64,000 nt of DNA, taken from Planctomycetota bacterium. GTDB lineage: Bacteria > Planctomycetota > Planctomycetia > Gemmatales > Gemmataceae. Location: positions 1 to 64,000 of the forward strand of contig JACPPF010000137.1 of the NCBI GenBank assembly GCA_016191165.1, read 5' to 3'. Position 1 is the first letter of the stretch, and each line of letters starts with the position of its first letter. Shown piece by piece: positions 7,923 to 53,712 of the stretch. The notes beneath the pieces are model-generated. The model was not told the origin of the DNA, did not search any database, and saw nothing but the letters and a program-made list of their open reading frames with translations. The translations under genes and the position numbers were made by a program.

Positions 7923-8119
7923 TCGCCGGGCGAGCTGGACCGTGTCAGCGGCCGGGGACGACCCCGACCGCTCGCACGGCCCGGTTTGCCATCTCATCTT
8001 GCCTGATTTTCCCATCTGCCGAAAAAACCCCGCCGCCCGATCGCGCCAATTCGGATTGCCTGGCAGGGAAAAAACGCTATGTTGCCTCCGCACGCAATCA
8101 TAATCCTTGAGATGGCTCC

Positions 8120-8758: not shown

Positions 8759-8841
8759 GGCGCGGTGGCCGCGCCCGTTCCACGGATGCGAACGGTTCCG
8801 GGGTGCGAAGCGCATCCCGTGCCGGACGAAGGGAGTCGTTC

Positions 8842-9516: not shown

Positions 9517-9534
9517 AAAACCCCTTCGCATTTT

Positions 9535-9592
9535 TGCCGCTTGCGGCTTGGCGTTCGCGCGGCGCAGCGCGAACGCCAGGCCGCGAGCGGCA
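9535..9592. terminator. 26-bp-stem hairpin between convergent genes
   Basis: Arms 9535-9560 and 9567-9592 pair with two mismatches around a 6-base loop. It sits between two convergent stop codons, so it may end transcription from both sides. The arm sequence recurs elsewhere in the window (24 identical bases at 27404-27427, and a related hairpin at 28600-28651), so it also behaves as a dispersed REP-like repeat. Confidence 0.6.
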
Positions 9593-9602
9593 TCAGGCAA
9601 AT

Positions 9603-11024
9603 CTAATTCACTTTCTTCCCAACCGTGCGAATGATGTCCGCTGCCGCCGGCGGGATGTGCTGGCCGGACAGCTCGCTGGCGATCATGCGGATCATCAGTT
9701 TTTCGAGGCGTTCCACTTGATAGTAGGGGATCGACGGTTCGGCATGCGCGCCGCCCACGCCGGAGTCGTCGGTCAAGAACAGGAACTGACTGCCCGTGAG
9801 CATGGCGCAGGAGCGCATCACCAGCTCGCAGGCCGGGTCGTAGCCGCTGCACGCGATCGGATAGACGGCGATCCCCTTCTTGCGCAGGGTATTGGCGGCG
9901 GCGAGGGTACGATTCATGTGCTGAGCGTGCGGCGGGGCATCACCGACGAGAAAGACGAGGCGAGCGGTGTCCTTATCCTGCCAGCGCAGTTGCAGCGTTT
10001 CCTCGAGCCCGCGGTGCATGGCCTCGGGATAGTCGCCGCCGCCACCAGCACTTTGCGCCGACAGACGCTTGTGGAAGAGATCGAGCGAATCGGTGAAGTC
10101 GAAGGGCCGCACGACGTATTCATCGCCTTCATCGCGATAGAGGATCAGCGAGAATCGCTGTTTGACTTCAGGGAACTTCTTGGCGATCGATTCGGAAATG
10201 CCGCGGAACTCCGACTTGAGGTAGGCGAGTTCATCTCCCATGCTGCCGGTGGTGTCGAGAACGATGGCGAGGTCGAGGTTCTTGGGGAGCTGGGCTTGCA
10301 CGCCGGGGAGCGTGATCTCCCAGCGGGCGACGCCGGCGGCGACGGTGTCGGTGACGGGATTGCCGCCATTCGGGCCGGTGACCGTCGCGACCAACGGCTG
10401 ATCGCTCGGCAGTTGATCGAGCTTGAGCATGAACACGGCGCGGCCATCGCTGCGCGTGGTCAGCTCGACCGGGGCGCCGGCGCCCGCGGAGAGGCGGACG
10501 CGGGCGTTACCTACGGGTTTACCGCCGCCGTCCTTGATGATGACCATCAAACGCTGGCCTTGCAACTTGGTTGGAAAATCGCCAAGCCCATTTTTTTGGC
10601 TCATCTTGCGCAGGAACGAGTTGAACACGGCCGGGTTGACGTTGTCGTCAAAGCTACCCGCGGTGAGGATGCCGGCGGGCGGACCTTTCTCCACCTTTTT
10701 CTTGGGCGGTACGCGGCCAACGACCGGGTCCGCGACGCCGGGGTCGGGCTTGCCTTCTTTGGCAGGCGCCTTGTCGGCGCTTTTCTTGGCGAGGGGTTCG
10801 GTCTTGGGGGCCGCTGCTGTTGTTTTTCCTTCGCGGGTGAGCGGTATTCTCGAGAGGTCGCGGGACGGTTCGCCTTCCCGCGCCTCGTCGACCGAGATTT
10901 TCGCGACCGGGTTGCCACCGGCTTTCGTGGCAGAGTCCGGGGTCCCTTTTCTCTTGTCGCTGTGACACCCCGGCACCGCAATGCCGAGGACGCCCAACAT
11001 CAAGACGAGTGCAATCGCGCGCAT
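9603..11024 (-). CDS. Lipoprotein with von Willebrand factor A domain
   Basis: 473 residues with AGGAGA just upstream. Residues 1-20 are a lipoprotein signal ending in the lipobox VPGC. A charged, low-complexity linker (about 22-115) is followed by an Ig/Big-like beta domain with GGGKPVGNARVRLSAG at about 165-235, then a VWA domain at 249-430. The MIDAS motif DTTGS is at 257-261 (canonical DxSxS with Thr as third position), and GGGDYPEA at 328-335 supplies the downstream MIDAS loop. Such proteins bind ligands or partners through a divalent metal on the outer face of a membrane. Its neighbour upstream on the same strand is a cytochrome c-TPR protein 108 bp away, possibly in the same transcript. 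The ligand is unknown. Confidence 0.75.
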   Translation of the reverse strand: MRAIALVLMLGVLGIAVPGCHSDKRKGTPDSATKAGGNPVAKISVDEAREGEPSRDLSRIPLTREGKTTAAAPKTEPLAKKSADKAPAKEGKPDPGVADPVVGRVPPKKKVEKGPPAGILTAGSFDDNVNPAVFNSFLRKMSQKNGLGDFPTKLQGQRLMVIIKDGGGKPVGNARVRLSAGAGAPVELTTRSDGRAVFMLKLDQLPSDQPLVATVTGPNGGNPVTDTVAAGVARWEITLPGVQAQLPKNLDLAIVLDTTGSMGDELAYLKSEFRGISESIAKKFPEVKQRFSLILYRDEGDEYVVRPFDFTDSLDLFHKRLSAQSAGGGGDYPEAMHRGLEETLQLRWQDKDTARLVFLVGDAPPHAQHMNRTLAAANTLRKKGIAVYPIACSGYDPACELVMRSCAMLTGSQFLFLTDDSGVGGAHAEPSIPYYQVERLEKLMIRMIASELSGQHIPPAAADIIRTVGKKVN

Positions 11025-11042
11025 GCCTGTCTCCTCATTTGT

Positions 11043-11115
11043 TTAACCGCGACCCGACGGGGGCGCGGCCGACCGCAAGTCACTCTGCCCGCACTCCCCT
11101 TCGGGTCGCGGCTAA
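11043..11115. terminator. Imperfect long hairpin in a gap between same-strand genes
   Basis: Arms 11043-11068 and 11089-11115 are mostly complementary (cores CGCGACCCGA and TCGGGTCGCG). It lies in the 108-bp gap upstream of the VWA gene. A similar right arm recurs at 31421-31449. It could act as a terminator or mRNA stem for the upstream cytochrome gene, or simply be a mobile repeat. Confidence 0.45.
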
Positions 11116-11132
11116 CCGTCAAAAACGTCGAG

Positions 11133-13505
11133 TCATTCCCCATCCAGATTCGGGTCAAGTTCAATCGCCCTCTTGCGATCCACCTCGGCTCGTTCACGAT
11201 TACCTTGCCGCATCAGCGCCACGCTGCGGTTCAGATAAGCGACGGCGAAACGCGGGTTGAGCCGGATCGCAGCGCTGAAATCGCTGACCGCCTGCGCGAG
11301 CCGATTCTTGCGCAGGTGCGCCAAACCCCGATTGTTAAACGCGGCCGCGAACTTGGCGTCGAGCTTGACGGCGCGATCGAAGTCGGCAATTGCCTTGTCG
11401 TGCTCGCCTTTCTCCAGGTGGGCATAGCCGCGGTTGTTGTAGATGAGGGCCGAGGAGCCCTGATAGCGCAAGGCCTCGCTGTAGTCGGCAATTGCTTGCG
11501 TGAGTTCGTTTCTTCCGAAATGGACCACGCCGCGGTTGAGGTAGGCGATGCCGAAGCGCGGGTCGAGCCGAAGCGCTTCGGTGAAGTCCGCCAGCGCCTT
11601 GACGGAATCGCCGCGACGATGGAACGCCAGCCCGCGATTGTTGAGCACGACCGCCGAGCGCGGATCGACCCGCAGCGATTCCGAATAGGCGGCAATCGCC
11701 GCGCCGAACTCGCCGCGCAGCCGCAGGGCGTCGCCCTTGCCCGCGTGGGCCAGGGGATTGTCCGGCTCCTGTGCCAGCGCGTCGTTGAACGCCTTCAAGG
11801 CACTCGCCGGGGCCTTTTTCAAGTCGATCTGCCCACGGCGGATCAATCGCTCGGCCGTGAGGTTGCGCGAGGTGAGCAGGGTTCCCTGCTTGAGCGCTTC
11901 GACAAGTTCCTGAAAGCAATCGACGAACACTTGCCGCTGGACGGTTCCCCCCTCGACGCGGAGTGGACCGAGTTGCTTGGCAAGATAGGGATAGCGTACA
12001 AGCGCCTGGAGGAAGTCGTCCTTCGTCACGCCGGCCTCGGCGGCGACCAGGGCCAGGTCGAGCTCCGATTCAAAACGCTGAGCCAGGGCGGTGATCGGCT
12101 CGGTCGCGCTCAAGGGCGCGCCGGTTTTGCCGACCGCGTCCTGGAATCGCTTCGCGTCGGCGCGCATCATCCCGGCCATCTTGTCCGCGGGGGGATAGAG
12201 CGCGCGCAAGTTTTCCAGGGCGCCCTCCGAAAAAGCTTGCTTGTTCTTGAGCACGTGAGCGCGAACCTGATCGGCCTTCTCGATGATGCCGCGGTGGTGG
12301 CATGACATGCACGACAGCCCGTTCTCGACCGCGCGGTCCGGGCGACGCGGATCGCTGACGACGGAAGTCGGACCCTTGTCGATGCGGTTGCCCTTGCCGT
12401 CCGTCAGGAAATAGCCTTGCAGGCCGTTGGGCAGGGAAAAGATGATCTCGCCCCCGTCATGCAGGAAGGAGTCGTCGCGATTGGCCGGCCCGGTCGGGTG
12501 AGCGAACAAATTCTGCCGGCCGGTGTTGCCCGCGAAATCGTAGCTTTTCCAGTAGACAGTCCCGCTTGCTTCGTGGCGTTCGATGAGCCGATTGTTGCGC
12601 GATACGCCCGAGCTGTTGAACCCGGCGCGGGCGGCGCGCTCCTGGCGGATGTTCTCCAGGGTATCGATCCGCAGCTGTCTTTCCAGATCGCTCTCGGTCA
12701 TTGGCAACTGCAAGATGTCATGGTAAAGCGGCGGCCTTGAGGCGACGGCGACGAACCAGTCCGCCCGCACATACGGCAGCTTGCACCCGCTCGCCTCGGC
12801 GATTTCCCTCGATAGGTCCGTGTTGAACAGGACGCCATACGGATTGCGCGCTAGGATCGCATCCCAGGTCTTTTCGTTCCACTGAAAATCGCGCAAATCG
12901 ATGCGCAGAATGGTTTTTGCGCCATCGATGGCCGCGGGCACCACGATGCGCTTGCCCCACGACAGGCTGTTGACGAGCTTGGCCAGACCGTGGCGAAAGC
13001 TTTGCATCTCGTCCGCGGACAACCCGGCGTTGTGCAGGTGGGTCAGCGTGAAGTAACGCAGGTAAGCGCGCTCGCGGGGCTTCGCCTTGGCGAGATCGGC
13101 GCGAATCGACTTGAGCATGTCGGCCGAGGATAGAAACGGACGTGGCGCAGCCACGTCGCGTGCGGGGGCGCCGGCGGCGATCCATTTCTTGAGCGTGTCG
13201 ATCTCCGCCACGCTGGGCCGAGCCTTCTCCTCGCTCGGCGGCATCGGGTCGAGCTTGTTGAGAATTCTCCTCATGAGCTTCGACTTGCCAGGGTCACCGG
13301 CAACGATGCGACGGCGACTGACCAGCAGGCGCAAATCGCTGGCGTAGTTGAAGCCGCCCTCGTTGGCGCCGTCCTGTCCGTGACAGCGATAACAGTGGGT
13401 CTTGAGGATCGCCTGCGCTTGCCGGGCGAGTTCGCGGTGTTCCTGCCCGGCCGCGACGAGAGGCACGAGAAAGGAAATCCCCAGCGCGCACGCCATCGCT
13501 TTCAT
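11133..13505 (-). CDS. Planctomycete-type cytochrome c domain fused to TPRs
   Basis: 790 residues. The signal peptide ends near VAAGQ. The first heme motif CYRCH (38-42) lies in a PSCyt1-like domain: HGQDGANEGG, then GDPGKSKLMRRI, then the methionine loop LDPMPPSEEK near 85-94, which can supply the axial Met. A second CxxCH (CMSCHHRG) lies near 398-402 after a long central region without a recognised fold. Residues about 560-788 are six to seven TPRs (for example LALDPRFGIAYLNRGVVHF-type units; Asn-Arg-Gly turns throughout). PSCyt1 domains normally occur with PSD1 domains, so a TPR partner is a less usual arrangement. It is predicted to be periplasmic, with a role in electron transfer or redox sensing plus protein binding. 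Confidence 0.7.
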   Translation of the reverse strand: MKAMACALGISFLVPLVAAGQEHRELARQAQAILKTHCYRCHGQDGANEGGFNYASDLRLLVSRRRIVAGDPGKSKLMRRILNKLDPMPPSEEKARPSVAEIDTLKKWIAAGAPARDVAAPRPFLSSADMLKSIRADLAKAKPRERAYLRYFTLTHLHNAGLSADEMQSFRHGLAKLVNSLSWGKRIVVPAAIDGAKTILRIDLRDFQWNEKTWDAILARNPYGVLFNTDLSREIAEASGCKLPYVRADWFVAVASRPPLYHDILQLPMTESDLERQLRIDTLENIRQERAARAGFNSSGVSRNNRLIERHEASGTVYWKSYDFAGNTGRQNLFAHPTGPANRDDSFLHDGGEIIFSLPNGLQGYFLTDGKGNRIDKGPTSVVSDPRRPDRAVENGLSCMSCHHRGIIEKADQVRAHVLKNKQAFSEGALENLRALYPPADKMAGMMRADAKRFQDAVGKTGAPLSATEPITALAQRFESELDLALVAAEAGVTKDDFLQALVRYPYLAKQLGPLRVEGGTVQRQVFVDCFQELVEALKQGTLLTSRNLTAERLIRRGQIDLKKAPASALKAFNDALAQEPDNPLAHAGKGDALRLRGEFGAAIAAYSESLRVDPRSAVVLNNRGLAFHRRGDSVKALADFTEALRLDPRFGIAYLNRGVVHFGRNELTQAIADYSEALRYQGSSALIYNNRGYAHLEKGEHDKAIADFDRAVKLDAKFAAAFNNRGLAHLRKNRLAQAVSDFSAAIRLNPRFAVAYLNRSVALMRQGNRERAEVDRKRAIELDPNLDGE

Positions 13506-14047
13506 GGTGACTCCTTCGATCGAACCGATTGCAAAGAAATGCCAAAAATTCGCGGTGCGAGCAGTAGAAACGAAGACACTCGCGCCGCCGGTATGAAGCC
13601 TATCCGATATTACGATGCAAGGTCAAGGAGTTTATTCCCGCCATGAGGCGAGAATTGTGCCCACATCCCGGCACGCTCGTTGGCAAGCTCCAACGCAGGC
13701 GCACCGTTTGGCCGCACGGGCGTGGTGCGTAGGAGCGGAGCTTCACGCACCCCGGCACTGCCTCGTTTTCGACCGCAGGTTTGGGTACCTGTGAGGCGGA
13801 AACCATGTTTCAGAAAAAAAACCGTCGAACGATTTGCCTTTGGCCCAAGTGTGACCTAGTTTTGGTTGTCCTCAACTTTTGGGGAGAAGAAGAGGACCTT
13901 GGGGCCGTTCGGCAGAGAGGGGATTGTCGGCGGCCCATTTTTTCCCTTTTTCGCCAGTCCCATTCGGTTAATCGCCGATGGGCCTGGCGAATTTTTTTTG
14001 ACCCGCGCTCGCTCGCGGACTGGCGGGGTGCGGGATACAATTAGTTC
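13506..14047. other. 542-bp intergenic region, no gene seen; hairpin at 13724-13751
   Basis: This separates the divergent cytochrome c-TPR and metallophosphoesterase genes. Short frames in it lack coding bias. A hairpin with arms GGTGCGT (13724-13730) and ACGCACC (13745-13751) lies in the middle. A second half (13810-14040) is T- and A-rich in tracts (AAAAAAA near 13816, TTTTTTT near 13990). Promoters for both neighbours are expected, but I could not place them. Confidence 0.4.
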
Positions 14048-14929
14048 ATGCGAATCGCCATCACCGCCGACCTGCATTTCGGGCATAATCGCCTCGGGGA
14101 TGAGGCGACGCACCTGCTCCTTCAGCAATTGCGGCAGGCGCCACCCGACTTGCTTCTGCTGGGCGGAGACATCGGCACCGAGGATCACTTCGGCGATTGC
14201 TTGCAGCTGTTCCGCGATCTACCCTGCGTTCGAGCGCTGGTTCCAGGCAATCACGATCTCTGGGTCGCGGAGCACGATCGCCGCGGCAATTCCCTGGCGG
14301 TGTATCAGCAGCATTTGCCCGACCTGTGCAAGAGCTATGGGTATCACTACCTCGATCAGGCCCCACTGCTCTTCCCGAAAGACGATCTTGCCGTCGTGGG
14401 GTCGATCAACTGGTACGACTATTCCTGGTCACTGGAGCGGATGAAGGCGGAGATTCCCGACTGGCAGTGGCATCTGGACCACAAGGCGTTCACGCGCGGC
14501 CGGCATAACGACGGCCGCTTCGTGCTGTGGAACCTCGACGACGTGCGCTTCACCGCCCGGGTCGTCGCCGAGTTCGAGCGTCAGCTGACCGACGCCCTCG
14601 GCCAGGTCGGGACGTGCATCGTGATGACACATCACCCCGCCTTCCACGGCATCGGATTCCCGCGCGCGGCGCCGGCCCAGGGGCTGGATGAGCTGCTTTG
14701 GGAAGCGCTTTCTGGTAATCGGGGTCTGGAAACGGTTCTTGAGAAATACGCCGAGCACATCGCCCTGATTCTGTCGGGCCACACGCATCGCGCCGCCGAG
14801 GCGATGCTCGGGCCGGCGCGAGGACTCAACATCGGTGGGGATTATCACTTCAAACGCCTGCTCATGTTCGATTGGCCCGCCGGCGCCATCGAGGCCTTCA
14901 CGTTTGGCGACCCGAATCGCCGGCGCTGA
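14048..14929 (+). CDS. Calcineurin-like metallophosphoesterase
   Basis: 293 residues with the full set of metal-binding motifs: DLH (Asp8, His10), GGD (39-41), GNHD (67-70), THH (194-196) and GHTH (244-247). These bind a two-metal centre (often Mn/Fe) that hydrolyses phosphomono- or phosphodiesters. There is no signal peptide, so it is probably cytoplasmic. The Shine-Dalgarno is weak (GGGA 13 bases upstream). The substrate cannot be deduced from the sequence. It stands alone, with a divergent neighbour upstream and a convergent one downstream. Confidence 0.85.
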   Translation: MRIAITADLHFGHNRLGDEATHLLLQQLRQAPPDLLLLGGDIGTEDHFGDCLQLFRDLPCVRALVPGNHDLWVAEHDRRGNSLAVYQQHLPDLCKSYGYHYLDQAPLLFPKDDLAVVGSINWYDYSWSLERMKAEIPDWQWHLDHKAFTRGRHNDGRFVLWNLDDVRFTARVVAEFERQLTDALGQVGTCIVMTHHPAFHGIGFPRAAPAQGLDELLWEALSGNRGLETVLEKYAEHIALILSGHTHRAAEAMLGPARGLNIGGDYHFKRLLMFDWPAGAIEAFTFGDPNRRR

Positions 14930-41863: not shown

Positions 41864-43156
41864 GTGGCTGCCGGCAAGAAGAACGCCATTGAAAAACGCC
41901 TGGACGACGTTACGGTCCTGTGGAACCAATTCGCCGCCAATCCCAAAGCGCGCATGCTGCGCTGGCTGGCCGGCGGCGACGATTACCACATGGTCGAGAC
42001 GTTCCTCGAATGGGCGCGCAACGGCGGCAGCGACCTGCCGGACCTTTTCATCCGCTTTGAAACGCCGTTCGCCGATCCGAAGCGCCATGGCTTCGCCTTG
42101 ATCGAGGATCTTCGCAGGCAATATGAGGAAACTCAGACCGATCTGAAAGACGATGAAGTCCCGATCACCTGGGTTTGCCCCGCCGCCGCGAATACCGACG
42201 CGGATGTGGCCGCGCTGGCGCGTTGCTGCGCCTCGTTTGCCCAGTATTATGCTGAGCTGGTGGAACGCCTCGTACTGGTGTTCGTGCCGGCGCAGATTGC
42301 CGATCGGTCGGCATGGCCCGTTTGGCTATTGTCCCTGGCCCGCGCGGGATTGCCCGCGAACGTGCGAGTCACGGTGCTGGATCAAATGGAAGCGCCAATT
42401 CTCGATTCGATCTGCCAGGCCGAGCCGGAGCGGATTGTGACCATCAAGCCGGAGCTCAACATGTCCGCCGCCTATGCCGACCTGGCGCGCGACGTGAAGG
42501 GCGCCGGGCCCGGGCATACCTTTCGGCGTCTGTTTGTTGCTTTGACTAATGCCGCCGGCAAAGGGGACTTTGCCGCCGCGACTCAGGCGGCAACGGAGGC
42601 CATCGCGATCGCTACTCAGGAAAAGTGGCCCTCCCTGCTGATGGCCGTTCACATGGCCCTGGGCGGCGCCTACCTCGGCGCTGCCAAGTTCACCGAAGCG
42701 CTGGACTGCTATCGCAAAGCAACCCAGGCGGCGGACGCGGCTTTGGCGGCAGGCGACGAGGCGGGACCGAAACTCGTGCTCCCGCCCCGGTTCGCCGAAG
42801 GCGCCGCCCTCGTCAGCGCGGGGCAGTTCGCCGAGGCGGCGCCCGTTTACGAAACCACCGCCGCCATCGCCGGCGCCCAGCAGGATGGCCTGATGACGCT
42901 CGAAGCGTGGCGCATGGCCGCGTATTGCCATGAAAAGAACAAGCAAATCCCCCCGGCCTGGGAGGCGGGGCAGAAAGCTCTCGCCGCCGGGGCCGCCCTC
43001 GATCCAGAACAGCGCGCCAACTCGATGTTGCCCTTCGTCGGCAAGTCGTTGCTAGGCCTGGCGAAAGAAAAGCCATACCGCGATGAGGTCGACGCGATTC
43101 GCAAACGCATGGCCGAGCTGGTCGGTCCAGACTGGGAGAAGAGGGCCACGCCATGA
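41864..43156 (+). CDS. TPR-containing protein, putative effector adaptor
   Basis: 430 residues from GTG 41864, preceded by CGGAG at seven bases; another GTG at 41834 has no such site. Residues 1-240 are an alpha/beta region of unknown fold (WLAGGDDYHMVETFLEWARN; PITWVCPAAANTDADVAALARCCA split over about 110-135; LVFVPAQIADRSAWPVWLL). Residues about 240-400 are TPR-like helical pairs (FAAATQAATEAIAIATQE, YLGAAKFTEALDCYRKA). Its stop overlaps the RHS start as ATGA, which couples translation to the effector. Position between vgrG and an RHS effector is where T6SS adaptors or chaperones are encoded (for example DUF4123 or DUF1795 proteins), but it resembles neither. Role inferred from position. 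Confidence 0.6.
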   Translation: MAAGKKNAIEKRLDDVTVLWNQFAANPKARMLRWLAGGDDYHMVETFLEWARNGGSDLPDLFIRFETPFADPKRHGFALIEDLRRQYEETQTDLKDDEVPITWVCPAAANTDADVAALARCCASFAQYYAELVERLVLVFVPAQIADRSAWPVWLLSLARAGLPANVRVTVLDQMEAPILDSICQAEPERIVTIKPELNMSAAYADLARDVKGAGPGHTFRRLFVALTNAAGKGDFAAATQAATEAIAIATQEKWPSLLMAVHMALGGAYLGAAKFTEALDCYRKATQAADAALAAGDEAGPKLVLPPRFAEGAALVSAGQFAEAAPVYETTAAIAGAQQDGLMTLEAWRMAAYCHEKNKQIPPAWEAGQKALAAGAALDPEQRANSMLPFVGKSLLGLAKEKPYRDEVDAIRKRMAELVGPDWEKRATP

Positions 43157-46100
43157 TCGCCGGCAAACACTTCGACCCCGTGGTGGGCGTTGACATCCAT
43201 ATCATTCAGCCGCCGGGCCCGGTCCCGCCCCTGCCCATTCCCCATCCCTTCATCGGTTTTCTCATCGACCCGATGGACTATGTGCCCATCGTCGGCGCCA
43301 CGGTCGAAGTCAACGGCATGAAACGCGGCGTGGCCGGCAGCAGCGGCAAGTGCGTCCCGCCTCATATCCCCATCGGCGGGGTCTTCGTCAAGCCTCCCGC
43401 CAACGAGTGCGAAGTGTTCATGGGCAGCCAAACCGTCCTGTTCGACGGCGACCCGGCCACGCGCCTCGGCGAGCCCGTCCTGAGTTGCCACGACATCGGC
43501 ATGCCTCCCATTCCGCGGCTAAAGAAAAAGAGCACCACCAAGTCGATGGTGCTCCCGACCAGCGTCGTCCTCGCCGTCCCCGCCGGGCCACCCGTCATGA
43601 TCGGTGGACCTCCCATCATCAACTTCATGGCCATGGCCATGAAGCTCGGCATGGCTGCCCTGGGCAAAGCGTTCAAGAAATTGATGAAGACGAACCTGGC
43701 CAAGAAAGCCGGCGCCGCGTTCAAAAAGGCGCGCCAAAAGGCCTTTGGCAAAATGAAGCCGGGGTTTCTGAAGTGCAAAGTCCTCAAGGCCGAGCCAGTC
43801 AACAGCATCACGGGCGAGGTCGTGGTCGAACAACAGGACTTCGCCCTCCCAGGTCGCCTGCCGTTCGACTGGATTCGCACCTACGGCTCCCAGAACGAAC
43901 GCTCGGGCTTGTGCGGGCACGGCTGGGAAACGCCGGCCGATGCGCGGATCGTCTTCGAATCCGATGGCTCGGTCACCTTCGCCGACGGCAGCGCCGGGAC
44001 CACGCTCTTTCCGCACCTGCCACCCGATGGATCGGTCGAAGAAGCGTTCGCAGGCACCCTCCTCACGCACCGCCCGGGCCTGCTTCATGTCCGCACCAAG
44101 GAAGGCCTCAGCTATCAATTCACTTACCCAGAGCCGGGCGTCAAGGAGGCTTTTGTCGAATCGATCACCGACCGCTGCAACAACAAGCTGCGTTTCGTCC
44201 GCAACGGTCGCGATCTCCTGGCCATCGAGGAAAGCACCGGCCGGCGCATCGACGTGACCTGCCGCAATGGCCGAATCGCGGAGATGTTTCTGCACGCACC
44301 TGGCGAACCACAGCCCCGGCTGTTGGTTCAATACGAGTACAACGCCGACGGCGATCTGGTGACCGTGTTTGACGCGCTGAAGGCGCCGATCCGATTCGCC
44401 TACCGCGACCACCGCGTGGTCAAGCTGACCGATCGCAACGGCCTGTCGTTCTACTGGGAATACGACAACTACACGGCCAGGGGACGTTGCATTCACCCCT
44501 ACGGCGACGGCGGGCTCTATGACTATCGTTTTGAATATGACAACATCCTGCAAGAAACGCGCGTGACCGACTCGCTGGGCCACGTCACCACGATTCAGTT
44601 CGACGACCGCTTCCTGCCCATCATGGAGATCGACCCGCTCGGCGGCGTCACGTCCTACGAGTACGACGACGCCGGGCGTACCCTCGCCGTCAGCGATCCC
44701 GTGGGCAACCGCACCGAGTACGAATACGACGATCGCGGCAACCTGCTCAAGCTCACCCGGCCCGATGGCGCCGCGGTTGTCGTGGAATTCAACAGCCAGG
44801 ATCAGGTAGTCAAACTCACCGATCCCCTGGGCGCCGTCTGGGAGCAAACCTGGGACACCCGCGGCCTGTTGATCGAACAAAAATCGCCCCTGGGCGCCAT
44901 CTCCAAATATGAATACGACGCCCAGGGCCAGCTCCGCGCTTTCACCAACCCGCGCGGCGCCCGCACCATGCTCGACTTCGATCCCCTCGGCAACATCTCG
45001 CTCTTGACAGACGCTCTGGGCCATCGAAGCCAGTTCACCCACGACGCCCTCGGCAACCTCATCCAAAAAATCGACCCGCTCGGTCGCGAGACCGCCTACC
45101 GCTACGACCTGAAATCGCGCCTGCTGGACATCACGCTGCCATCCAAATCAACCATTCATTGCGGCTACGACGGCGAGGACAACCTGATCCGCTACGTCGA
45201 TGAAAACGGCGCGGAGACGCGCCTCGAATACCGCGGGCTCGGCGAAATCTCCAAGCGCATCCAGCCCGACGGGCACACCGTTCAGTACCACTACGACAAC
45301 GAAGAGCGTTTGACCGGCATCACCAACCAGCGCGGCGAAACCTACAAACTCGTTCGCGATCCGCTCGGCCGCATCATCGAGGAAATCGACTACTGGGGCC
45401 AGCCGCGACGCTACGAATACGATGCCGCCGGCAACCTGTGCGCCGCCATCGATCCGCTCGGACGCCGCGTCGATTACAAGTGCGATCCACTCGGGCGCAT
45501 CGTTCAGAAAACCCTCCCCGGCGGCGTGGAGGAAATGTTCGCCTATGACGGTAACGGCAATATCGTCGCCATGGAAAACGCCCACGGACCCGTGCAGCGC
45601 GTGTTCGACCTCGAAGGTCGGCTCCTCAAGGAAATCCAGGGTGAAACGTTTGTACTTGAGAATACCTATGACCTGGTCGGCAACCGCATTGCGCGAAAGA
45701 CGAGCCTGGGGAACCTCATCGAATATACCTACGATCGGCTCGACCAGGTCGCCACGGTCGGCATCAACGGCGCCGAACCAATCCGCATGGAGCGCGACGC
45801 CGCTGGGCAAGTCACACGCGAAACCCTGACGGCAAGCGTATCGCGAAGGCTCGCCTACAACGACGACGGGCTCCTCACGGAACAGGCGATGTCCAGCATG
45901 GATGGGCCAGCCTTCTCCACGCGCTTTGAATATGACCGCGCGGGCAACCTGACCAAACGCCTCGACACCCAGTTCGGGACCGATTCTTACAAATACGATC
46001 CCGTGGGCCGAATCCTGGAACATGTCGATCCCCAGGGCAAGCTCCATGGCTACCTGAACGACCCAGCCGGTGATCGACTGCGCACGCGCACCCTCGGCGC

Positions 46101-47175
46101 CGGCGACGATTGGCGCCGCGAGGGCGAACACGAGGGAACGTCCTATCGCTTCGATCGCGCCGGCAACCTGACCCATCGCCGCGACACCAAGCGCGACCTC
46201 GAACTCATCTGGGACGCCAACCAACGGCTCATCGAAAGCCGCGACCACGGCAAACCAACCCGCTACGGTTACGACCCGCTCGGCCGACGCCTGTTCAAGG
46301 AAACCGCGGGCATTCGCACCCTGTTCTTCTGGGACGGCGATGCCCTGGTCGGCGAAACCGTGGTGGACGCGACAAAACCCAATGAGAAGAAACCAATACG
46401 TGAATACGTGTACTACCCGGAGACGTTTGAACCGTTGGCCTTGATCGTGGCGGATGCCGAGAGTCGGCAGGTGTATAATTACCACAACGACCCGAACGGC
46501 TGTCCGACGCGGATGACGGATGCGAAGGGGCGGGTGAAGTGGGGGGTGACTTACACGGCGTGGGGTAAAGTTTCACGTTTTGATATTCAGGAACTCGATA
46601 ATCGAATCCGCCTACAAGGTCAGTTGGAGGATCCAGAAACCGGCCTTTGTTATAATCGCCACCGGTATTTTGATCAATGCACGGGCCAGTTCATTTCCCA
46701 GGATCCCTTGGGAATAGAAATTGCGAAAAACCTGTATGAATTTGCCGTGAACAGCTTGGCCTGGATAGATCCCTGGGGGCTTAACTGCAAACTGCGCGAC
46801 GCGAAGGGCCGGTTCCGGAAAGCCGCCACGGCAGCAGAGGAACTGTCCACGATGCCCCAGTTGGCGGGTAAGAAGCAGGCCGACATTGAAAAAATGCTGA
46901 AGCGCCGCGGATATACGAGTGTGCCGGCGCATAGTGGTGGCACGGTTTGGACCAAATCTATGCCCGACGGCAACACGGTTGCTGTGCGCCTCGATCCGCC
47001 GATGGTGCGAACTCCGCCGAAAGGGTTTGCAGATGAGGTCAAACATGCGCACAAAGAAATCGTACCTACGTCCGCAGTGAGTGGCGGAAATTATCCACCA
47101 AATGCGGCGTCGAAACTTGGCGACACGGGCGCTCCTTCAACGGGCCCCCGTGATGCCCACATCCCCATCCAGTAA
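43153..47175 (+). CDS. PAAR/DUF4150-RHS polymorphic toxin
   Basis: 1340 residues. Residues 1-125 form a PAAR-like DUF4150 domain (PHPFIGFLIDPMDYVPIVGA, HIPIGGVF, FMGSQTV, LSCHDIG) that caps VgrG. A hydrophobic segment (about 133-170) and a Lys-rich stretch follow, then DUF6531 (about 212-290, PVNSITGEVVVEQQDF). The RHS shell of YD repeats covers about 330-1165 (YDxxGRxxx, for example YEYDDAGRTLAV). The core motif ending DPLGIE and WIDPWGL lies at about 1170-1210. After it comes a 130-residue variable domain (KLRDAKGRFRKA, GYTSVPAHSGGTVWTK, ADEVKHAHKEIVPTSAVSG, RDAHIPIQ). RHS proteins cage and deliver C-terminal toxins. The toxin domain is not one I can name with confidence. Confidence 0.9.
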   Translation: MIAGKHFDPVVGVDIHIIQPPGPVPPLPIPHPFIGFLIDPMDYVPIVGATVEVNGMKRGVAGSSGKCVPPHIPIGGVFVKPPANECEVFMGSQTVLFDGDPATRLGEPVLSCHDIGMPPIPRLKKKSTTKSMVLPTSVVLAVPAGPPVMIGGPPIINFMAMAMKLGMAALGKAFKKLMKTNLAKKAGAAFKKARQKAFGKMKPGFLKCKVLKAEPVNSITGEVVVEQQDFALPGRLPFDWIRTYGSQNERSGLCGHGWETPADARIVFESDGSVTFADGSAGTTLFPHLPPDGSVEEAFAGTLLTHRPGLLHVRTKEGLSYQFTYPEPGVKEAFVESITDRCNNKLRFVRNGRDLLAIEESTGRRIDVTCRNGRIAEMFLHAPGEPQPRLLVQYEYNADGDLVTVFDALKAPIRFAYRDHRVVKLTDRNGLSFYWEYDNYTARGRCIHPYGDGGLYDYRFEYDNILQETRVTDSLGHVTTIQFDDRFLPIMEIDPLGGVTSYEYDDAGRTLAVSDPVGNRTEYEYDDRGNLLKLTRPDGAAVVVEFNSQDQVVKLTDPLGAVWEQTWDTRGLLIEQKSPLGAISKYEYDAQGQLRAFTNPRGARTMLDFDPLGNISLLTDALGHRSQFTHDALGNLIQKIDPLGRETAYRYDLKSRLLDITLPSKSTIHCGYDGEDNLIRYVDENGAETRLEYRGLGEISKRIQPDGHTVQYHYDNEERLTGITNQRGETYKLVRDPLGRIIEEIDYWGQPRRYEYDAAGNLCAAIDPLGRRVDYKCDPLGRIVQKTLPGGVEEMFAYDGNGNIVAMENAHGPVQRVFDLEGRLLKEIQGETFVLENTYDLVGNRIARKTSLGNLIEYTYDRLDQVATVGINGAEPIRMERDAAGQVTRETLTASVSRRLAYNDDGLLTEQAMSSMDGPAFSTRFEYDRAGNLTKRLDTQFGTDSYKYDPVGRILEHVDPQGKLHGYLNDPAGDRLRTRTLGAGDDWRREGEHEGTSYRFDRAGNLTHRRDTKRDLELIWDANQRLIESRDHGKPTRYGYDPLGRRLFKETAGIRTLFFWDGDALVGETVVDATKPNEKKPIREYVYYPETFEPLALIVADAESRQVYNYHNDPNGCPTRMTDAKGRVKWGVTYTAWGKVSRFDIQELDNRIRLQGQLEDPETGLCYNRHRYFDQCTGQFISQDPLGIEIAKNLYEFAVNSLAWIDPWGLNCKLRDAKGRFRKAATAAEELSTMPQLAGKKQADIEKMLKRRGYTSVPAHSGGTVWTKSMPDGNTVAVRLDPPMVRTPPKGFADEVKHAHKEIVPTSAVSGGNYPPNAASKLGDTGAPSTGPRDAHIPIQ

Positions 47176-47192
47176 ACCCTGAGGGCATGCTA

Positions 47193-47729
47193 ATGAAAAC
47201 GCTCGACAACATCCTGGGTTGCAAGGACCTGGCTCAGCTACTCAAGGAGCTCGAGGATTCGGTTGCATTTCTACACACCCAAAGGCGCCTGCCCCCGGCG
47301 TGGACGCCGGCAGAGGAAAAACGGCTGGTGGCGATGATTGACAAAATTGACGATTCCCGATTATGGCGCGCCTTGTGGTCCTACCTCTTAGTCTCGCGCG
47401 GGGATGCAAGAATCGGCGAGTACTGCCGAAGCCGACTCGCGCGGTTCGCAAACATCCGAAAAGTAAACCAAGAACCCGGCGTCCAACGACCAGACGTGTT
47501 TCTGCGGTATCTCTTCAAGCATTTTCCCGAAGAACGCGACGCCTTGCTCGCCAAATTCGTCCACGCCCAAGACATTACGCTTCGCTTTGCCGTGGCAGAA
47601 GAGCTTGCCAAGACCGATCCGGATGGTGCGTTGCAACAAATGCGAGTCCTTCATGAAGAAGCCGGAAGTACGGTCTATCATGACATCTTTGATGCCACGG
47701 ACCTTTGGCTCGCTGAAGCGGGAACATGA
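47193..47729 (+). CDS. Candidate immunity protein for the RHS toxin
   Basis: 178 residues from ATG 47193 (GAGGG seven bases upstream; the ATG at 47187 is less well placed). The sequence is entirely helical (KDLAQLLKELEDSVAFLH, DDSRLWRALWSYLLVSRG, LRFAVAEELAKTDPDGALQQM) in HEAT-like pairs, with no signal peptide. It starts 17 bp after the RHS stop, the usual position for the cognate immunity gene of a polymorphic toxin. AT content appears higher than in the RHS shell, as is common for toxin/immunity ends. I do not recognise the family. The function is inferred from position alone. Confidence 0.6.
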   Translation: MKTLDNILGCKDLAQLLKELEDSVAFLHTQRRLPPAWTPAEEKRLVAMIDKIDDSRLWRALWSYLLVSRGDARIGEYCRSRLARFANIRKVNQEPGVQRPDVFLRYLFKHFPEERDALLAKFVHAQDITLRFAVAEELAKTDPDGALQQMRVLHEEAGSTVYHDIFDATDLWLAEAGT

Positions 47730-48057: not shown

Positions 48058-49020
48058 TCACGCCCCCCCCGGCTTCTCCACCCCGTCCGGCGAGTGGGCC
48101 ATGCGGAAACGCTGGAAGATCATCGGCCTTGCAAACGGCTCGATTTGCAGCATCACCATGCCGTTCTGAAAAATCACCACGTGGCCCGACGATTGGCTAA
48201 CTACGATGGCGACGGCCTTGGTCTTCTTGGTGATGGCGGCGCCGGCCCAGTGGCGGGTGCCCCAGCCCTTGCTGATGCCCACGACCCCCTCCGTCGGCGC
48301 GTCGATCAACATGCACGCCGCCTCCGCCACGCCGTCGCGCCGGATCAAGATGGCGCCTTCGAGCTGGGCGATGTCCTTGATCTGCTCGCGGACCTTCTTG
48401 TCGCGGATGTCCCGTTCCTTGCGGCCATAACCGCGGAACGGATTGAAATTGAGCGGCCGCGACATCGACAAGACTTTTTCGGTATCCCCGACCACGAACA
48501 TGGTGCCGACCGGTTTGCCCTCGCGGCCTTCCTGCCCGATCTCGGTCGCCAGTTCGACGACAGCCCGCAGGGTTTCCAACGGTACATGCGTATCGAGTTT
48601 GCGCAGATCGGCGGCGGTGAGGCGTTCGAGGTGTTCGCCCAGGTGGATGACGCTCAGGCTATCCACATGCTCCGGCCTGCCGTCGTCCATGCCGATGCCG
48701 TTGAAGATCGCGATGACCTGCGCGCCGCTCTTGAGCTTCTCGGTGGCGACCGCTTCCAGAAGCGCGACGCTCATCTGTTCGTGCGTTGGCGTCGGCCCGG
48801 GGTCAATGTCCAGAACGTGCAGGCGCTTGTCGGCATTCAAGAGCTGATGCAGCTTCGGATTCTTGGCGGAGACGAGCAGCTTGTCCGCGGGCAGGATTTG
48901 CAGGACCTCGTTCCAGTCCTGATTGATCTCCGTCAGCAGCAACACCGCGTCAGCCGACAACTCATCCAGCAACTGGCGAGCAGCCTTCAAAAGGACGGTG
49001 GTTTGTAGCGGGAGAGCCAT
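48058..49020 (-). CDS. Diadenylate cyclase-like protein (DacZ-type)
   Basis: 320 residues. The N-terminal ~160 residues are a pyruvate-kinase C-domain-like alpha/beta region. The DAC (DisA_N) domain follows: GKPVGTMFVVGDTEKVL (168-184), NPFRGYGRKERD, QIKDIAQLEGAILI (213-226), KGWGTRHWAGAAIT (251-264) and AIVVSQSSGHVVIF. This two-domain order and the RHWAG version of the RHR loop match the archaeal DacZ group better than DisA or CdaA. The key DGA motif reads EGA (221-223), so the Asp thought to hold the metal is a Glu. Active members make c-di-AMP from two ATP; activity here is uncertain. Confidence 0.75.
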   Translation of the reverse strand: MALPLQTTVLLKAARQLLDELSADAVLLLTEINQDWNEVLQILPADKLLVSAKNPKLHQLLNADKRLHVLDIDPGPTPTHEQMSVALLEAVATEKLKSGAQVIAIFNGIGMDDGRPEHVDSLSVIHLGEHLERLTAADLRKLDTHVPLETLRAVVELATEIGQEGREGKPVGTMFVVGDTEKVLSMSRPLNFNPFRGYGRKERDIRDKKVREQIKDIAQLEGAILIRRDGVAEAACMLIDAPTEGVVGISKGWGTRHWAGAAITKKTKAVAIVVSQSSGHVVIFQNGMVMLQIEPFARPMIFQRFRMAHSPDGVEKPGGA

Positions 49021-49255: not shown

Positions 49256-50611
49256 ATGCAAGAAACGATCCTTCAATCGATTGGCAAGACTCCGCTCGTC
49301 AAGCTGCGCCGCCTGACCGAAGGTCTGCAAGCCAGCGTCTTTGTCAAGAACGAAGCGATGAACCCCGGCGGCAGCGTCAAGGATCGGGTCGCCCAGTCGA
49401 TGATCGCCGATGCCGAACGCCGTGGACTGCTTCGGCTCGGCGGGACCATCATCGAGGCGACCGCGGGCAACACGGGAGTCGGGCTCGCCATGATCGCCGC
49501 CGTCAAGGGCTACCGCTGCATCTTCGTCCTGCCCGACAAGATGAGCGGCGAGAAGATCGGCCTGCTCAAGGCGTATGGCGCCGAGGTCGTCATCACGCCC
49601 ACCAATGTCCCGCCCGATTCGCCCGACAGCTACAACGGCGTCGCCGATCGCCTGGCCCGCGAAATCCCCGGCGCCTGGCGGCCCAACCAGTTCTCCAACC
49701 TCTCCAATCCCGAGGTCCACTACCGCACCACGGGCCACGAAATCTGGGAGCAGACCGAGGGCCGCATCACCGCGTTCGTCGCCGGCGCCGGCACGGGCGG
49801 AACGATCTCCGGCGTCGCTCGTTATCTCAAGGAGCAGAATCCCGATGTCAAGATCATCGGCGCCGATCCGGAGGGTTCGATCCTCTCCGGCGATTCGCCC
49901 AAGCCGTGGAAGGTGGAAGGCATCGGCGAGGACTTCGTGCCCAAGACGCTGAACAGCCAGCTCGTGGACGAGTGGATTCGCGTAGGCGATGCCGAAGCGT
50001 TCCACATCGCCCGGCAACTGGCGCGCCGTGAAGGGATGCTCGTGGGCGGTTCGAGCGGGACCGCCGTTGCCGCGGCCTTGCGCTATGCCCGCAGGCTCAC
50101 CAGCGAACATGTCGTCGTCGCGCTTTGCGCCGACACCGGGCGCAACTACCTGAGCAAGTTTTTCGACGACGACTGGCTAAACCAGAACAAACTCAACATG
50201 ACGACCGACGTGCCGCACTCGATCGGCGACTTGTTGAAATCGCGCGGACCTCGGCAGCTTGTGACGATAACGCCCAAGACGACGATCTCCGAAGCGATCC
50301 GCCTGTTGCAGACGTCCAGCTTTTCGCAATTGCCCGTGCTGGACGGCGGCAAATCGGTGGGCGCGATTCAGGAGGTGACGCTCGCACGCATCCTGCACGA
50401 TCACAGCGACCCCGACAAGATTGCCGTCGGCGACGTCATGGCCCGCCCGTTGCCGCAGATGGAAACAACGGTGCATCTCGACGAGGCCTATCGCCTCCTG
50501 CTGGCGGGCAACACTGGCGTGCTGGCGGTGCAGGACGGGCAGGTGGTCGATATCGTCACGCGCATCGATCTGGTGCATTACTGGAATCAGGTGCGGACGA
50601 GGAAGGCGTGA
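49256..50611 (+). CDS. Cystathionine beta-synthase (PLP domain plus CBS pair)
   Basis: 451 residues from ATG 49256 (AAAGG upstream; a TTG three codons earlier is closer to that site than usual). The fold-type II PLP domain has the lysine motif NPGGSVKDRVA (Lys42), the Asn loop EATAGNTGVG and the phosphate loop GAGTGGTISG, with PxDxSxxS-like ends. Two CBS domains occupy about residues 325-450 (VTITPKTTISEAIRLL, VGDVMARPLPQMETTVHLDEAY). This is the cystathionine beta-synthase layout, converting homocysteine and serine to cystathionine; an O-acetylserine sulfhydrylase activity is possible. The partner gamma-lyase/synthase gene lies 1.9 kb downstream, beyond the ATPase/TOPRIM cassette. Confidence 0.85.
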   Translation: MQETILQSIGKTPLVKLRRLTEGLQASVFVKNEAMNPGGSVKDRVAQSMIADAERRGLLRLGGTIIEATAGNTGVGLAMIAAVKGYRCIFVLPDKMSGEKIGLLKAYGAEVVITPTNVPPDSPDSYNGVADRLAREIPGAWRPNQFSNLSNPEVHYRTTGHEIWEQTEGRITAFVAGAGTGGTISGVARYLKEQNPDVKIIGADPEGSILSGDSPKPWKVEGIGEDFVPKTLNSQLVDEWIRVGDAEAFHIARQLARREGMLVGGSSGTAVAAALRYARRLTSEHVVVALCADTGRNYLSKFFDDDWLNQNKLNMTTDVPHSIGDLLKSRGPRQLVTITPKTTISEAIRLLQTSSFSQLPVLDGGKSVGAIQEVTLARILHDHSDPDKIAVGDVMARPLPQMETTVHLDEAYRLLLAGNTGVLAVQDGQVVDIVTRIDLVHYWNQVRTRKA

Positions 50612-50681
50612 GGCTCAGTGGTAAAAAGTCGGATACAATGAGCTTGGCCGATGCTTTGGGAATTGCGTGAGGGCTTGAGCC

Positions 50682-51797
50682 GTGATTACGTCCGTTCAAT
50701 TGCAGAACTTCAAGAGCTTCCAAAACCAACGGATACCGCTGGAACGGTTGACAGTACTTGTCGGAGCCAATGCAAGCGGCAAGACTAGCGTACTCGACGC
50801 AATCTGGATCGCCGTCCAGGCCACCCTCAATGGGCAGACGCAGATTTCCGGTCTAGCCAATGTGCGCGCGCTCAACCGACCGGGTTGGGAACTCGACAGC
50901 CTGTATACGCGCGGCGCTGCCGGCCAGTTATTCATTCAATGCAATAGTAACATCCGACCCATAGGTTTTTTTGCCGATCCCCCAGTGTTGCATGACGTTG
51001 GTCGGTCAAAATGGACTATCAAAATCGACAAGCCTACTTTGGTGGATCCGGATGAACGGCCGCTCCAGAATTACGGCGTTCCAACACCCGAGTATCTTAA
51101 GCTCAACGCCACCAAGCTTTCCATTGCAACCTATGCTGATCAATTTCCACCGCGCATGGCGACAGACGGAGAGGGCTTGCCATCTGTGCTTGCGGACATG
51201 GCGCTGGGTAATCGTGTGGAATTTGACGGCTTGATCGAGGAAATGCGCCGCCTCATACCGCATTTCATGGGCATCCGATTCACCAAACGACTTGTTCAAA
51301 GGATTGAAACAGAGTTAGTTCGGTTTGGTGATGACACGGTCGAACGGCAAATAAATCGGGACTTCCAAGGCGATGCCATACTCTTCGATTTCCAGAATGC
51401 AAAGGGCATTTCCGCTCACCTGGTCAGCGAAGGCACGCTGATGTTGCTTGGCCTCCTCACGATTCTTCTCGGCCCGTCGCGCCCCGACCTTCTACTTCTG
51501 GACGACATCGAACACGGCTTGCACCCGCTCGCACAAAAATCGTTGCTGGAATTCCTTCGCAAAATCATGGAGCGTTTCCCCAATCTGCAGGTCGTCGCGA
51601 CCGCCCACTCGCCATACCTGCTCGATTACCTCAAGTCTGAAGAAGTTCGCCTGTTGACCATCGATCCAGATGGTTACTCGGTGTGCGGCAAACTGACGGA
51701 TCACCCGCAATTCGAGAAATGGAAAGGCGAAATGGCGCCCGGCGAAATGTGGAGCCTATTCGGCGAAAAATGGCTTGGTGAGGGGCACGTCCAGTGA
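50682..51797 (+). CDS. SMC/OLD-like AAA ATPase of a two-gene cassette
   Basis: 371 residues from GTG 50682 (GAGGG upstream). Walker A is GANASGKTS (28-36) directly after LERLTVLV, as in OLD/RecF-type ATPases (AAA15/AAA21). An ABC-like signature LVSEGTLMLLGLL (247-259), Walker B LLLLDDIEHGLHP (270-282) and switch TAHSPYLLDYL (308-318) follow. The ATPase ends without a TOPRIM domain; that domain seems to be in the next gene. Length and order match the COG4637-type predicted ATPases. Its stop overlaps the next start by 4 bp. The gene sits between two trans-sulfuration genes and looks more AT-rich than they do. Confidence 0.75.
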   Translation: MITSVQLQNFKSFQNQRIPLERLTVLVGANASGKTSVLDAIWIAVQATLNGQTQISGLANVRALNRPGWELDSLYTRGAAGQLFIQCNSNIRPIGFFADPPVLHDVGRSKWTIKIDKPTLVDPDERPLQNYGVPTPEYLKLNATKLSIATYADQFPPRMATDGEGLPSVLADMALGNRVEFDGLIEEMRRLIPHFMGIRFTKRLVQRIETELVRFGDDTVERQINRDFQGDAILFDFQNAKGISAHLVSEGTLMLLGLLTILLGPSRPDLLLLDDIEHGLHPLAQKSLLEFLRKIMERFPNLQVVATAHSPYLLDYLKSEEVRLLTIDPDGYSVCGKLTDHPQFEKWKGEMAPGEMWSLFGEKWLGEGHVQ

Positions 51798-52552
51798 GCA
51801 GGACATTTGCCGTCATTTACGAGGCTCAGGCCGACTTCACCACGGCGACGGAAATCGCCGATCGCGTGATGCTTACCGAGATCGATTGGCTCGATGCAGC
51901 AATCCTCCCGTTCCAGCGCGGCTGGCTTGCGGAGTTGCCAGTCGGAAGGTGGTTGACGTGGTCGTCTATTCCGAGTCGCGCCAGAGAACAAGGGATTCGC
52001 GTTCGCGGACACTTCGACGGCGAACCGGGCCTGCCGGACGCCCAGGCAGCGAGGCGAGCGATTGCCTACATTCTTCACGTCGCGGATACCATCGATGCGA
52101 TCGTCCTTGTCCGCGACATGGATGACCAGACAGAACGAGCAAACGGCCTGAAACAAGCACGGCAGGTCTATTCGTCCAGGTGCCGGATCGTCATCGGAGC
52201 TGCAAATCGTGAGCGGGAAGCATGGGTAATCAGTGGTTTTCACCCGGGGGACGATGCCGAGAAAAACGCGCTTGCCTTGGAAACCCAAAAACTTGGACAT
52301 GATCCTTGCCTCCATTCCCACGAGTTGACTGCCGGCAAGAACGATCAGGCTCTCCGAAGCCCCAAACGCGTATTGAAGGCGCTGACAGGTGGCGATTGGA
52401 GCCGTGAACAGAAATGCTGGCATGAGACGCCGTTGCAGGTGTTGAAAGAACGCGGTGCCGGAAACGGACTCGCGAATTATCTTGATGAAGTCAAAGTCCA
52501 CCTGGTCCCCTTGATCAGCGGTCGGGCGAATGAGGGGCCAAACGAGAGGTAG
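51794..52552 (+). CDS. TOPRIM-like/DUF4276-like partner of the ATPase
   Basis: 252 residues. It overlaps the ATPase by GTGA, so the two are translated together. IYEAQADFTTATEI (8-21) resembles TOPRIM motif I (Glu10, Asp14), and IVLVRDMDDQTER (103-115) supplies the DxD pair (Asp108, Asp110). REREAWVISGF (139-149) resembles the conserved ExEaWxL segment of DUF4276 proteins, which often pair with such ATPases. The TOPRIM call is by motif only; a metal-dependent nuclease role is inferred. No helix-turn-helix or signal peptide is seen. If it is a nuclease, the ATPase would control it. Confidence 0.55.
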   Translation: MSRTFAVIYEAQADFTTATEIADRVMLTEIDWLDAAILPFQRGWLAELPVGRWLTWSSIPSRAREQGIRVRGHFDGEPGLPDAQAARRAIAYILHVADTIDAIVLVRDMDDQTERANGLKQARQVYSSRCRIVIGAANREREAWVISGFHPGDDAEKNALALETQKLGHDPCLHSHELTAGKNDQALRSPKRVLKALTGGDWSREQKCWHETPLQVLKERGAGNGLANYLDEVKVHLVPLISGRANEGPNER

Positions 52553-52560
52553 AAGGAATC

Positions 52561-53712
52561 ATGAACACCAAGGCCCAAGGTTTCTCCACCACCGCCATCC
52601 ACGCCGGCCAGGACGCCGATCCCGCCACGGGGGCGACGGTCGTGCCGATCTATGCCACGTCCACCTACACCCAGGCGGCGCCGGGGCAGCACAAGGGATA
52701 CGAGTATTCACGTACAGGCAACCCGACCCGCGCCGCGCTGGAAACCTGCCTGGCGGCCCTCGAAGGCGGCGCTCGCTGCCTGGCGTTCGCCTCGGGGCTG
52801 GCCGCGACCAACGCCGTGCTGGCCCAGCTTCGGCCTGGGGACGAAATCGCCGCGGCCGCGGACCTGTACGGCGGTACGTTTCGCATTCTTGAAAAAGTGT
52901 TCCGCCCGTGGGGCCTGGTCGCGCATTACACCGACGACCCCAGCCCGGATGGGTTTCGCAGGATCCTCACGCCGACCACAAAGATGGTGTGGATCGAAAC
53001 GCCAACCAACCCGCTCCTGCAAATCGCCGACATCGCCGCGCTGGCCGACCTCGCCCACAACGCGGGCGCTATTCTCGCGGTGGACAACACCTTCGCGTCG
53101 CCGTACTTGCAACAGCCAATCAAACTGGGCGCCGATCTCGTTGTACACAGCACGACCAAATACCTCGGCGGCCATTCCGACGTGGTGGGCGGCGCCGTCA
53201 TCGGTCGCGATGATTTGATGCAAGCCATTCAGTTCTACCAGAACGCCGCCGGCGCCGTGCCCGGGCCGTTCGATTCCTGGCTGGTCTTGCGCGGCATCAA
53301 GACGCTTGCCGTGCGTATGGATCGCCATTGCGCCAACGCCCGCCAACTTGCCGACTGGCTTGCGAAGCACCCAGCAATTGCGCGCGTCCACTATCCGGGG
53401 CTGCCGACCCATTCGGGCCATGCGCTCGCCAAGAAACAGATGCGCGACTTCGGCGGCATGATCTCGATAAGCATCAAGGGAGGCAAGGAAGCCGCGCTCA
53501 AGTTCCTGACACACACCAAACTGTTCAGCCTCGCCGAGAGCCTGGGCGGGGTCGAATCGCTCGTCGGCCACCCCGCGACGATGACCCACGCCAGCATCCC
53601 CGCCGAAATTCGGCAAGCCCGCGGCATCGACGATGGCCTGGTGCGATTAAGCGTTGGGATTGAGGACGTTGAAGATTTGCGCCGCGATTTGGAACTTGCG
53701 TTGGAGTCGTGA
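52561..53712 (+). CDS. Cystathionine gamma-synthase/lyase (Cys/Met metabolism PLP enzyme)
   Basis: 383 residues starting 8 bp after the TOPRIM gene. Fold-type I signature: YSRTGNPTR (49-57), ASGLAATNA, DLYGGTFR, AVDNTFASPYLQ (173-184), the lysine motif STTKYLGGHSD (Lys200) and SLGGVESLVGHP near 320. The family includes MetB, MetC and cystathionine gamma-lyase. The exact reaction cannot be fixed from sequence, but pairing with cystathionine beta-synthase favours gamma-lyase, which makes cysteine from cystathionine in the reverse trans-sulfuration pathway. Confidence 0.85.
   Translation: MNTKAQGFSTTAIHAGQDADPATGATVVPIYATSTYTQAAPGQHKGYEYSRTGNPTRAALETCLAALEGGARCLAFASGLAATNAVLAQLRPGDEIAAAADLYGGTFRILEKVFRPWGLVAHYTDDPSPDGFRRILTPTTKMVWIETPTNPLLQIADIAALADLAHNAGAILAVDNTFASPYLQQPIKLGADLVVHSTTKYLGGHSDVVGGAVIGRDDLMQAIQFYQNAAGAVPGPFDSWLVLRGIKTLAVRMDRHCANARQLADWLAKHPAIARVHYPGLPTHSGHALAKKQMRDFGGMISISIKGGKEAALKFLTHTKLFSLAESLGGVESLVGHPATMTHASIPAEIRQARGIDDGLVRLSVGIEDVEDLRRDLELALES

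Follow-up and report, generated by a model that had tools for sequence, protein, structure and literature searches.

The window analysed here, a stretch of 64,000 nucleotides from a planctomycete contig (JACPPF010000137.1), contains two genes of sulfur amino acid metabolism separated by a pair of overlapping genes. On the left lies a gene of the cystathionine beta-synthase type (cbs; 49256-50611, + strand), whose product carries PALP and CBS domains, and on the right a gene of the cystathionine gamma-lyase/synthase type (cgl; 52561-53712, +), with a Cys_Met_Meta_PP domain; these Pfam assignments confirm the trans-sulfuration flanks recognised in a previous, sequence-only reading of the locus. 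Between them, the first gene (50682-51797, +; GTG start) encodes an OLD/PtuA/SMC-like ABC ATPase of 371 aa, the proposed sensor or regulator subunit, and the second (51794-52552, +; GTG start) encodes a TOPRIM-like partner of 252 aa, the proposed effector nuclease and a putative distant relative of HEC-01B/DUF4276. Coordinates, strand and the 4-bp stop/start overlap of the two genes (GTGA; 51794-51797, +) are exactly as previously read, and the overlap is likely to couple their translation. The spacer between cbs and the ATPase gene measures 70 bp, that between the partner gene and cgl 8 bp. A gene for a DacZ-type diadenylate cyclase (DacZ_P and DAC domains; 48058-49020, -) adjoins cbs, and at 43153-47729 lies a gene for an RHS-repeat protein whose N-terminus is PAAR-like and whose C-terminus is variable; together with the 180-aa ORF that follows, it resembles, by eye, a polymorphic toxin with its immunity gene.

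Orthologues of cbs were found in 22 relatives at 67-90% identity. In all five congeners (i.e. members of the same genus) where cbs was found, it is followed by cgl with neither the ATPase nor the partner gene in between; the spacer is ~80-100 bp long in four of them and ~600 bp, with unrelated content, in the fifth. Homology to these empty junctions ends at ~50614 and resumes at 52553, directly after the partner stop codon, so that the inserted segment is delimited to ~1.94 kb (50615-52552) ending at that stop codon. The composition of the insert (GC 54-58%, GC3 62-64%) deviates from that of cbs and cgl (GC 64%, GC3 79-84%). Neither terminal repeats nor a target-site duplication, mobility gene, sigma-70-like promoter, tRNA or Rfam element were found at the insert. 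The earlier suggestion of an inserted cassette, for which adjacency of cbs and cgl in related genomes was the pertinent comparison, is thus borne out by the empty site in five same-genus genomes, by the deviant GC and GC3 and by the patchy distribution described below. Judged from these sequence features, the view that the pair is a foreign, horizontally acquired cassette inside a sulfur-amino-acid operon is supported. The cbs-cgl spacers of three congeners (L116, L117, L118) harbour a palindromic REP-like element (TTTAGCG...CGCTAAA and variants), which is absent from the junction in the window.

The ATPase matches the Pfam families AAA_21 (1.2e-32) and AAA_15 (4.4e-21). It possesses a Walker A motif (G28-x4-GKT, 28-35), an ABC signature-like SEGT motif beginning at S249 (249-252), a Walker B motif (LLLLDD, 270-275, with D274/D275) followed by LHP282, and an H-switch at H309, all of which are invariant in 30 homologues. 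Its C-terminus (341-364) is rich in tryptophan and conserved, while a lobe at ~46-135 is variable (conservation ~0.12-0.36) and represents a candidate sensing surface. There is no TOPRIM domain on the 371-aa protein, and its description as an OLD/SMC-like ATPase with Walker A, Walker B and switch but without a TOPRIM of its own stands on the motifs and both Pfam matches. The closest solved chains are PtuA/retron effectors and SMC heads. Septu PtuA, however, works with the HNH protein PtuB, whereas the partner in the window is TOPRIM-like. Gabija was likewise considered and rejected, since no TOPRIM is fused to the ATPase and no UvrD-like GajB helicase is present, the next genes being the partner and then cgl. 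Among PADLOC models, the ATPase matches AriA (1.5e-30) and HEC-01A (2e-30), and PDC-M07A equally well.

In the partner, residues E10, D108, R141, E142, W144 and K191 (among others) are invariant in 32 homologues, and D14 and D110 are conserved in at least 90% of them. Because E10, D108 and E142 never vary and D14 and D110 hardly do, the metal-site motif is not a chance occurrence, and the residues on which the TOPRIM-like label was originally based (Glu10/Asp14 and Asp108-x-Asp110) are all present and conserved. An 'ExEaW' segment noted at the same time held up in part: its second glutamate (E142) and the tryptophan (W144) are conserved, the remaining positions are not. The spacing of the E-x3-D and D-x-D motifs is that of OLD nuclease metal sites, exemplified by residues E377/D381/D431/D433 of TsOLD (PMC7049728).

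Searches of the partner against Pfam, NCBIfam and PHROGs yielded no family match; hits to Pfam DUF5722 and to a PHROG tape-measure family were dismissed as coming from a single member with E >0.02. A link emerges with HEC-01, the 'Hma-embedded candidate' pair HEC-01A/HEC-01B of PADLOC, whose B component overlaps Pfam DUF4276. The partner alone matches HEC-01B weakly (0.0024), its best homologue does so at 4.1e-5, and up to 15 of the 32 homologues reach E ≤0.1 with a HEC-01B model. In hhalign, the partner alignment reaches 93% probability (E 3e-7) with HEC-01B and 59% with DUF4276, while column-shuffled and reversed controls all remain below 1%, as does the comparison with OLD-TOPRIM. Matches to HEC-01B and DUF4276 fall on the same genes, nearly all of which have an ABC ATPase gene directly upstream; HEC-01 itself shows this arrangement, its ABC ATPase gene immediately preceding a small TOPRIM-like one. 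Because of this profile homology and common architecture, the window pair is placed, as a sequence-based assignment, as a putative divergent branch of the HEC-01/DUF4276 assemblage. The alignment with HEC-01B covers the N-terminal 150 residues, and the E, DxD and E.W motifs of the two coincide in it, but the conserved C-terminal half of the partner (170-240, with K191, R204-E205 and C208) lies outside it. No papers on DUF4276 were found in the open-access literature.

These comparisons bear on whether the pair could be PARIS proper (AriA + AriB). The ATPase match to AriA and the same two-gene order speak for this identity, and PARIS has also been found nested in BREX, namely in a Salmonella Type-1 BREX (PMC11341690). 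The ATPase matches PDC-M07A and HEC-01A equally well, however, and the effector does not correspond: none of 32 members matches Pfam DUF4435, the family of AriB, and hhalign to DUF4435 (four template sequences only) gives 0.5%, which makes PARIS proper very improbable. A RloB-like partner, as in AbiL/RloB-type pairs, was rejected as well (hhalign 0.4%, three template sequences), with one of 32 members matching RloB at 0.057. The suggestion of the sequence-only reading that the pair is a variant of the OLD/PARIS class therefore holds for architecture, motifs and HEC-01B/DUF4276 homology, but the partner is neither DUF4435 (AriB) nor RloB nor a recognisable OLD-TOPRIM.

An AF2 model of the partner (pLDDT 95) predicts an alpha/beta protein in which E10 lies at the end of strand 1, the DxD motif at the end of strand 102-108 and E142 after strand 131-137. 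Foldseek of this model against PDB returned nothing below 0.001, and PDB searches with phmmer and hmmsearch likewise yielded no match for the partner. With VIA-align, the OLD C-terminal domains 6nk8 (Z 7.1) and 6njv (Z 6.3) align over 173-174 residues, scores which unrelated Rossmann-like proteins reach similarly; only one listed chain, 2p62 (Z 8.6, 181 residues aligned), is covered more widely. Both fold searches are headed by Rossmann-like proteins (lumazine synthase, Argonaute MID, tubulin and others), which we did not count as relatives. On the model, a TOPRIM fold is likely.

A search with the partner alignment recovered 36 loci with partner homologues in Planctomycetota and Myxococcota, one of them a doubtful fragment (L043); the scan of the collection used one degenerate pattern, so that other phyla may be missed. 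A related ATPase gene lies at or just upstream of the partner gene in 34 of the 35 loci with upstream sequence, and of 29 homologous pairs checked for the 4-bp overlap, 16 share it; frameshifts occur in two copies (L041 and L042). The one locus without the ATPase gene holds an orphan partner (L036:2297-3124, the same locus as L005), in which D14 is changed to E and D110 to N and which, from its sequence, is likely an inactive copy. Another partner homologue (L003:1495-2295, -) contains an in-frame TGA at an otherwise conserved tryptophan (W32) and is probably a broken copy. Occurrence is patchy: in a single-sequence screen of the phylum the pair occurred in 5/392 genomes, plus one doubtful match; in the family it was found in 13/61, including the window's own genome and one weak match at 1.5e-4 (i.e. 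in ~12/60 other same-family genomes), with none in three sampled congeners. In Myxococcota it was found in 20/284 genomes. Neither tblastn against plasmids and phages nor two scans of viral contigs detected a copy of the pair. Most copies, including that of the window, stand alone among housekeeping genes and not in defence islands; at L148, for instance, the pair is interposed right after a gspF-like gene.

Two overlapping genes with a patchy, horizontally acquired occurrence could also constitute a toxin-antitoxin or addiction module, in which the ATPase would keep a TOPRIM-like RNase toxin in check and addiction, not phage defence, would maintain the two genes. AAA_21 includes AbiEii-type annotations, and an orphan partner devoid of two metal ligands is what would be expected if a free active partner were harmful. 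We nevertheless hold such a module to be distinctly unlikely: repeated nesting in BREX (see below) favours defence, and PARIS, the closest pair to have been worked out, tolerates the loss of either gene, so that a toxin-antitoxin system is excluded there (PMC9122126).

In five loci (L008, L011, L018, L035 and L150), the pair is situated inside Type-1 BREX operons in the order brxC - pglX - [ATPase - partner] - pglZ - brxL, although L011 and L035 belong to one MAG and the BREX locus of L035 is cut off inside pglZ. Partner and pglZ genes overlap by 4 bp in L008 and L018. The BREX-embedded copies are polyphyletic on the partner tree, with at least four changes across well-supported branches, and a single clade is rejected (AU p 3.9e-11); these changes may be gains or losses, and the association recurred either way. 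Elsewhere, the pair adjoins a pglX remnant (L010) or type I RM genes (L013). In L018, where the pair occupies 6886-8762, a GajA-like (Gabija) ATPase gene (13255-14784) follows the pair-containing BREX operon. BrxL occurs in 26 of 61 genomes of the window's family but not in the window's own genome, so that the window pair is independent of Type-1 BREX.

In seven myxobacteria (L022, L025, L027, L029, L030, L031, L038; ~4983-9000), the pair follows closely on ettA. Among three Corallococcus loci (L025, L027, L031), EttA is 98.9-99.6% identical (dS 0.07-0.09), while identity at the same site is 52-67% for the ATPases and 71-76% for the partners (dS ~0.7-2.5). The flanks share 93-95% nucleotide identity for ~7 kb to the left and 3-4 kb to the right, but the similarity breaks down in between; on the left, the variable stretch begins in the initial codons of the ATPase gene. 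Rapid protein evolution was rejected as an explanation, since synonymous sites are equally deviant; for the same reason whole-allele replacement fits better, and such replacement at a fixed site is typical of defence loci. In L025, a second, canonical HEC-01A/HEC-01B pair (9188-11265, -) directly adjoins the homologous pair and sits in the variable stretch; L031 contains a stretch that by eye resembles an IS66-type transposase.

This stable place beside ettA is one of the points in favour of a housekeeping or DNA-repair role, in which a RecF/SMC-like ATPase and a TOPRIM-like nuclease would process host nucleic acids as an optional gene pair. The ATPase domain indeed resembles RecF, SMC and Rad50, and archaeal Cran1 is an OLD ATPase that serves the host, in the cell cycle, and not defence (PMC12796447); such OLD ATPases, however, are vertically inherited. 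Since alleles have been replaced, residence next to ettA is not simple vertical inheritance, and the patchy occurrence (phylum, family and sampled congeners alike), the deviant composition and the at least four changes in BREX association also count against a housekeeping role, which we regard as unlikely. Orthologues at the same place in relatives, initially named as a sign against a mobile defence cassette, are found to a limited extent, namely in the seven myxobacteria, but with swapped alleles.

The high polymorphism of the Corallococcus alleles, at one fixed locus with conserved flanks, might alternatively point to allorecognition or kin discrimination, above all in myxobacteria, where the hypervariable ATPase allele would determine specificity. 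Neither a secretion or delivery part nor an immunity gene was seen, however, and the pair also occurs in planctomycetes and inside BREX, so that we give this explanation very little credence.

A defence role, as first suspected from the sequence, gains support from the five polyphyletic Type-1 BREX nestings, the type I RM neighbour and the allele exchange at a conserved site. Against it speak the solitary place of most copies, that of the window included, between housekeeping genes, the steady position beside ettA in seven myxobacteria, which could mean a host function, the existence of OLD ATPases such as Cran1 outside defence, and the negative searches for mobility genes and for plasmid, phage or viral-contig copies; moreover, the partner has no close solved or profiled relative. 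We consider it probable that the pair is a self-contained, horizontally acquired anti-phage system of an ABC-ATPase sensor and a separate TOPRIM-like effector, PARIS-like in its working but not PARIS. In PARIS, an AriA hexamer keeps hold of the TOPRIM tRNase AriB as long as no phage protein, for example Ocr, has been detected (PMC12409363, PMC9122126). By analogy, the ATPase would oligomerise, bind the partner and keep it inactive until an infection cue is sensed; the partner, once released or activated, would work as a nuclease that depends on divalent metal and uses E10/D14/D108/D110 (together with E142 and K191), cut nucleic acid (RNA or DNA) and thereby block phage multiplication, with abortive infection as the probable route. 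All of this, from sensing, inhibition and activation to the nuclease activity, its substrate and the abortive outcome, is what we infer. The BREX association suggests, again in analogy to PARIS, a back-up role that would be triggered when restriction is defeated. Tentatively, the pair might form a distinct OLD-ABC/TOPRIM-like class that has repeatedly joined Type-1 BREX at pglX-pglZ, where it would guard BREX through cell killing or arrest upon inhibition of the latter and would act on another nucleic-acid target than PARIS does.

As a kind, the combination of an OLD-ABC ATPase with a TOPRIM-type effector is already known, but the partner family is unnamed in the libraries searched. With PARIS, the pair shares a separate ABC ATPase and TOPRIM-type effector as well as embedding in Type-1 BREX; the partner, unlike AriB, is not DUF4435. 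With OLD nucleases (class 1 P2 Old/TsOLD; class 2 Gabija GajA) it shares the ABC ATPase fold and the E-x3-[D/E] + DxD metal site, but ATPase and predicted nuclease are separate genes, and the partner lacks a sequence-profile match to OLD-TOPRIM. The same concept of OLD-ABC + nuclease modules inside BREX loci, proposed as BREX back-up effectors, is put forward in the main text of PMC12839542, which names neither Planctomycetota nor Myxococcota; the family of the window pair may be among the unlisted modules of that study. Repeated pglX-pglZ nesting and allele exchange of the pair have, as far as we checked, not been described. The partner family joins a growing set of ABC-ATPase/TOPRIM immune pairs, and the pair could become a detection model for the defence repertoires of Planctomycetota and Myxococcota. 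For the idea of a guard of BREX, it offers a natural experiment, as the same module occurs standalone, in BREX and, at one site in close relatives, as swapped alleles. The window's own genome harbours a second pair of ABC ATPase and DUF4276 genes (G000:C56:42616-44429, i.e. L094:359-2172; DUF4276 E 7e-54).
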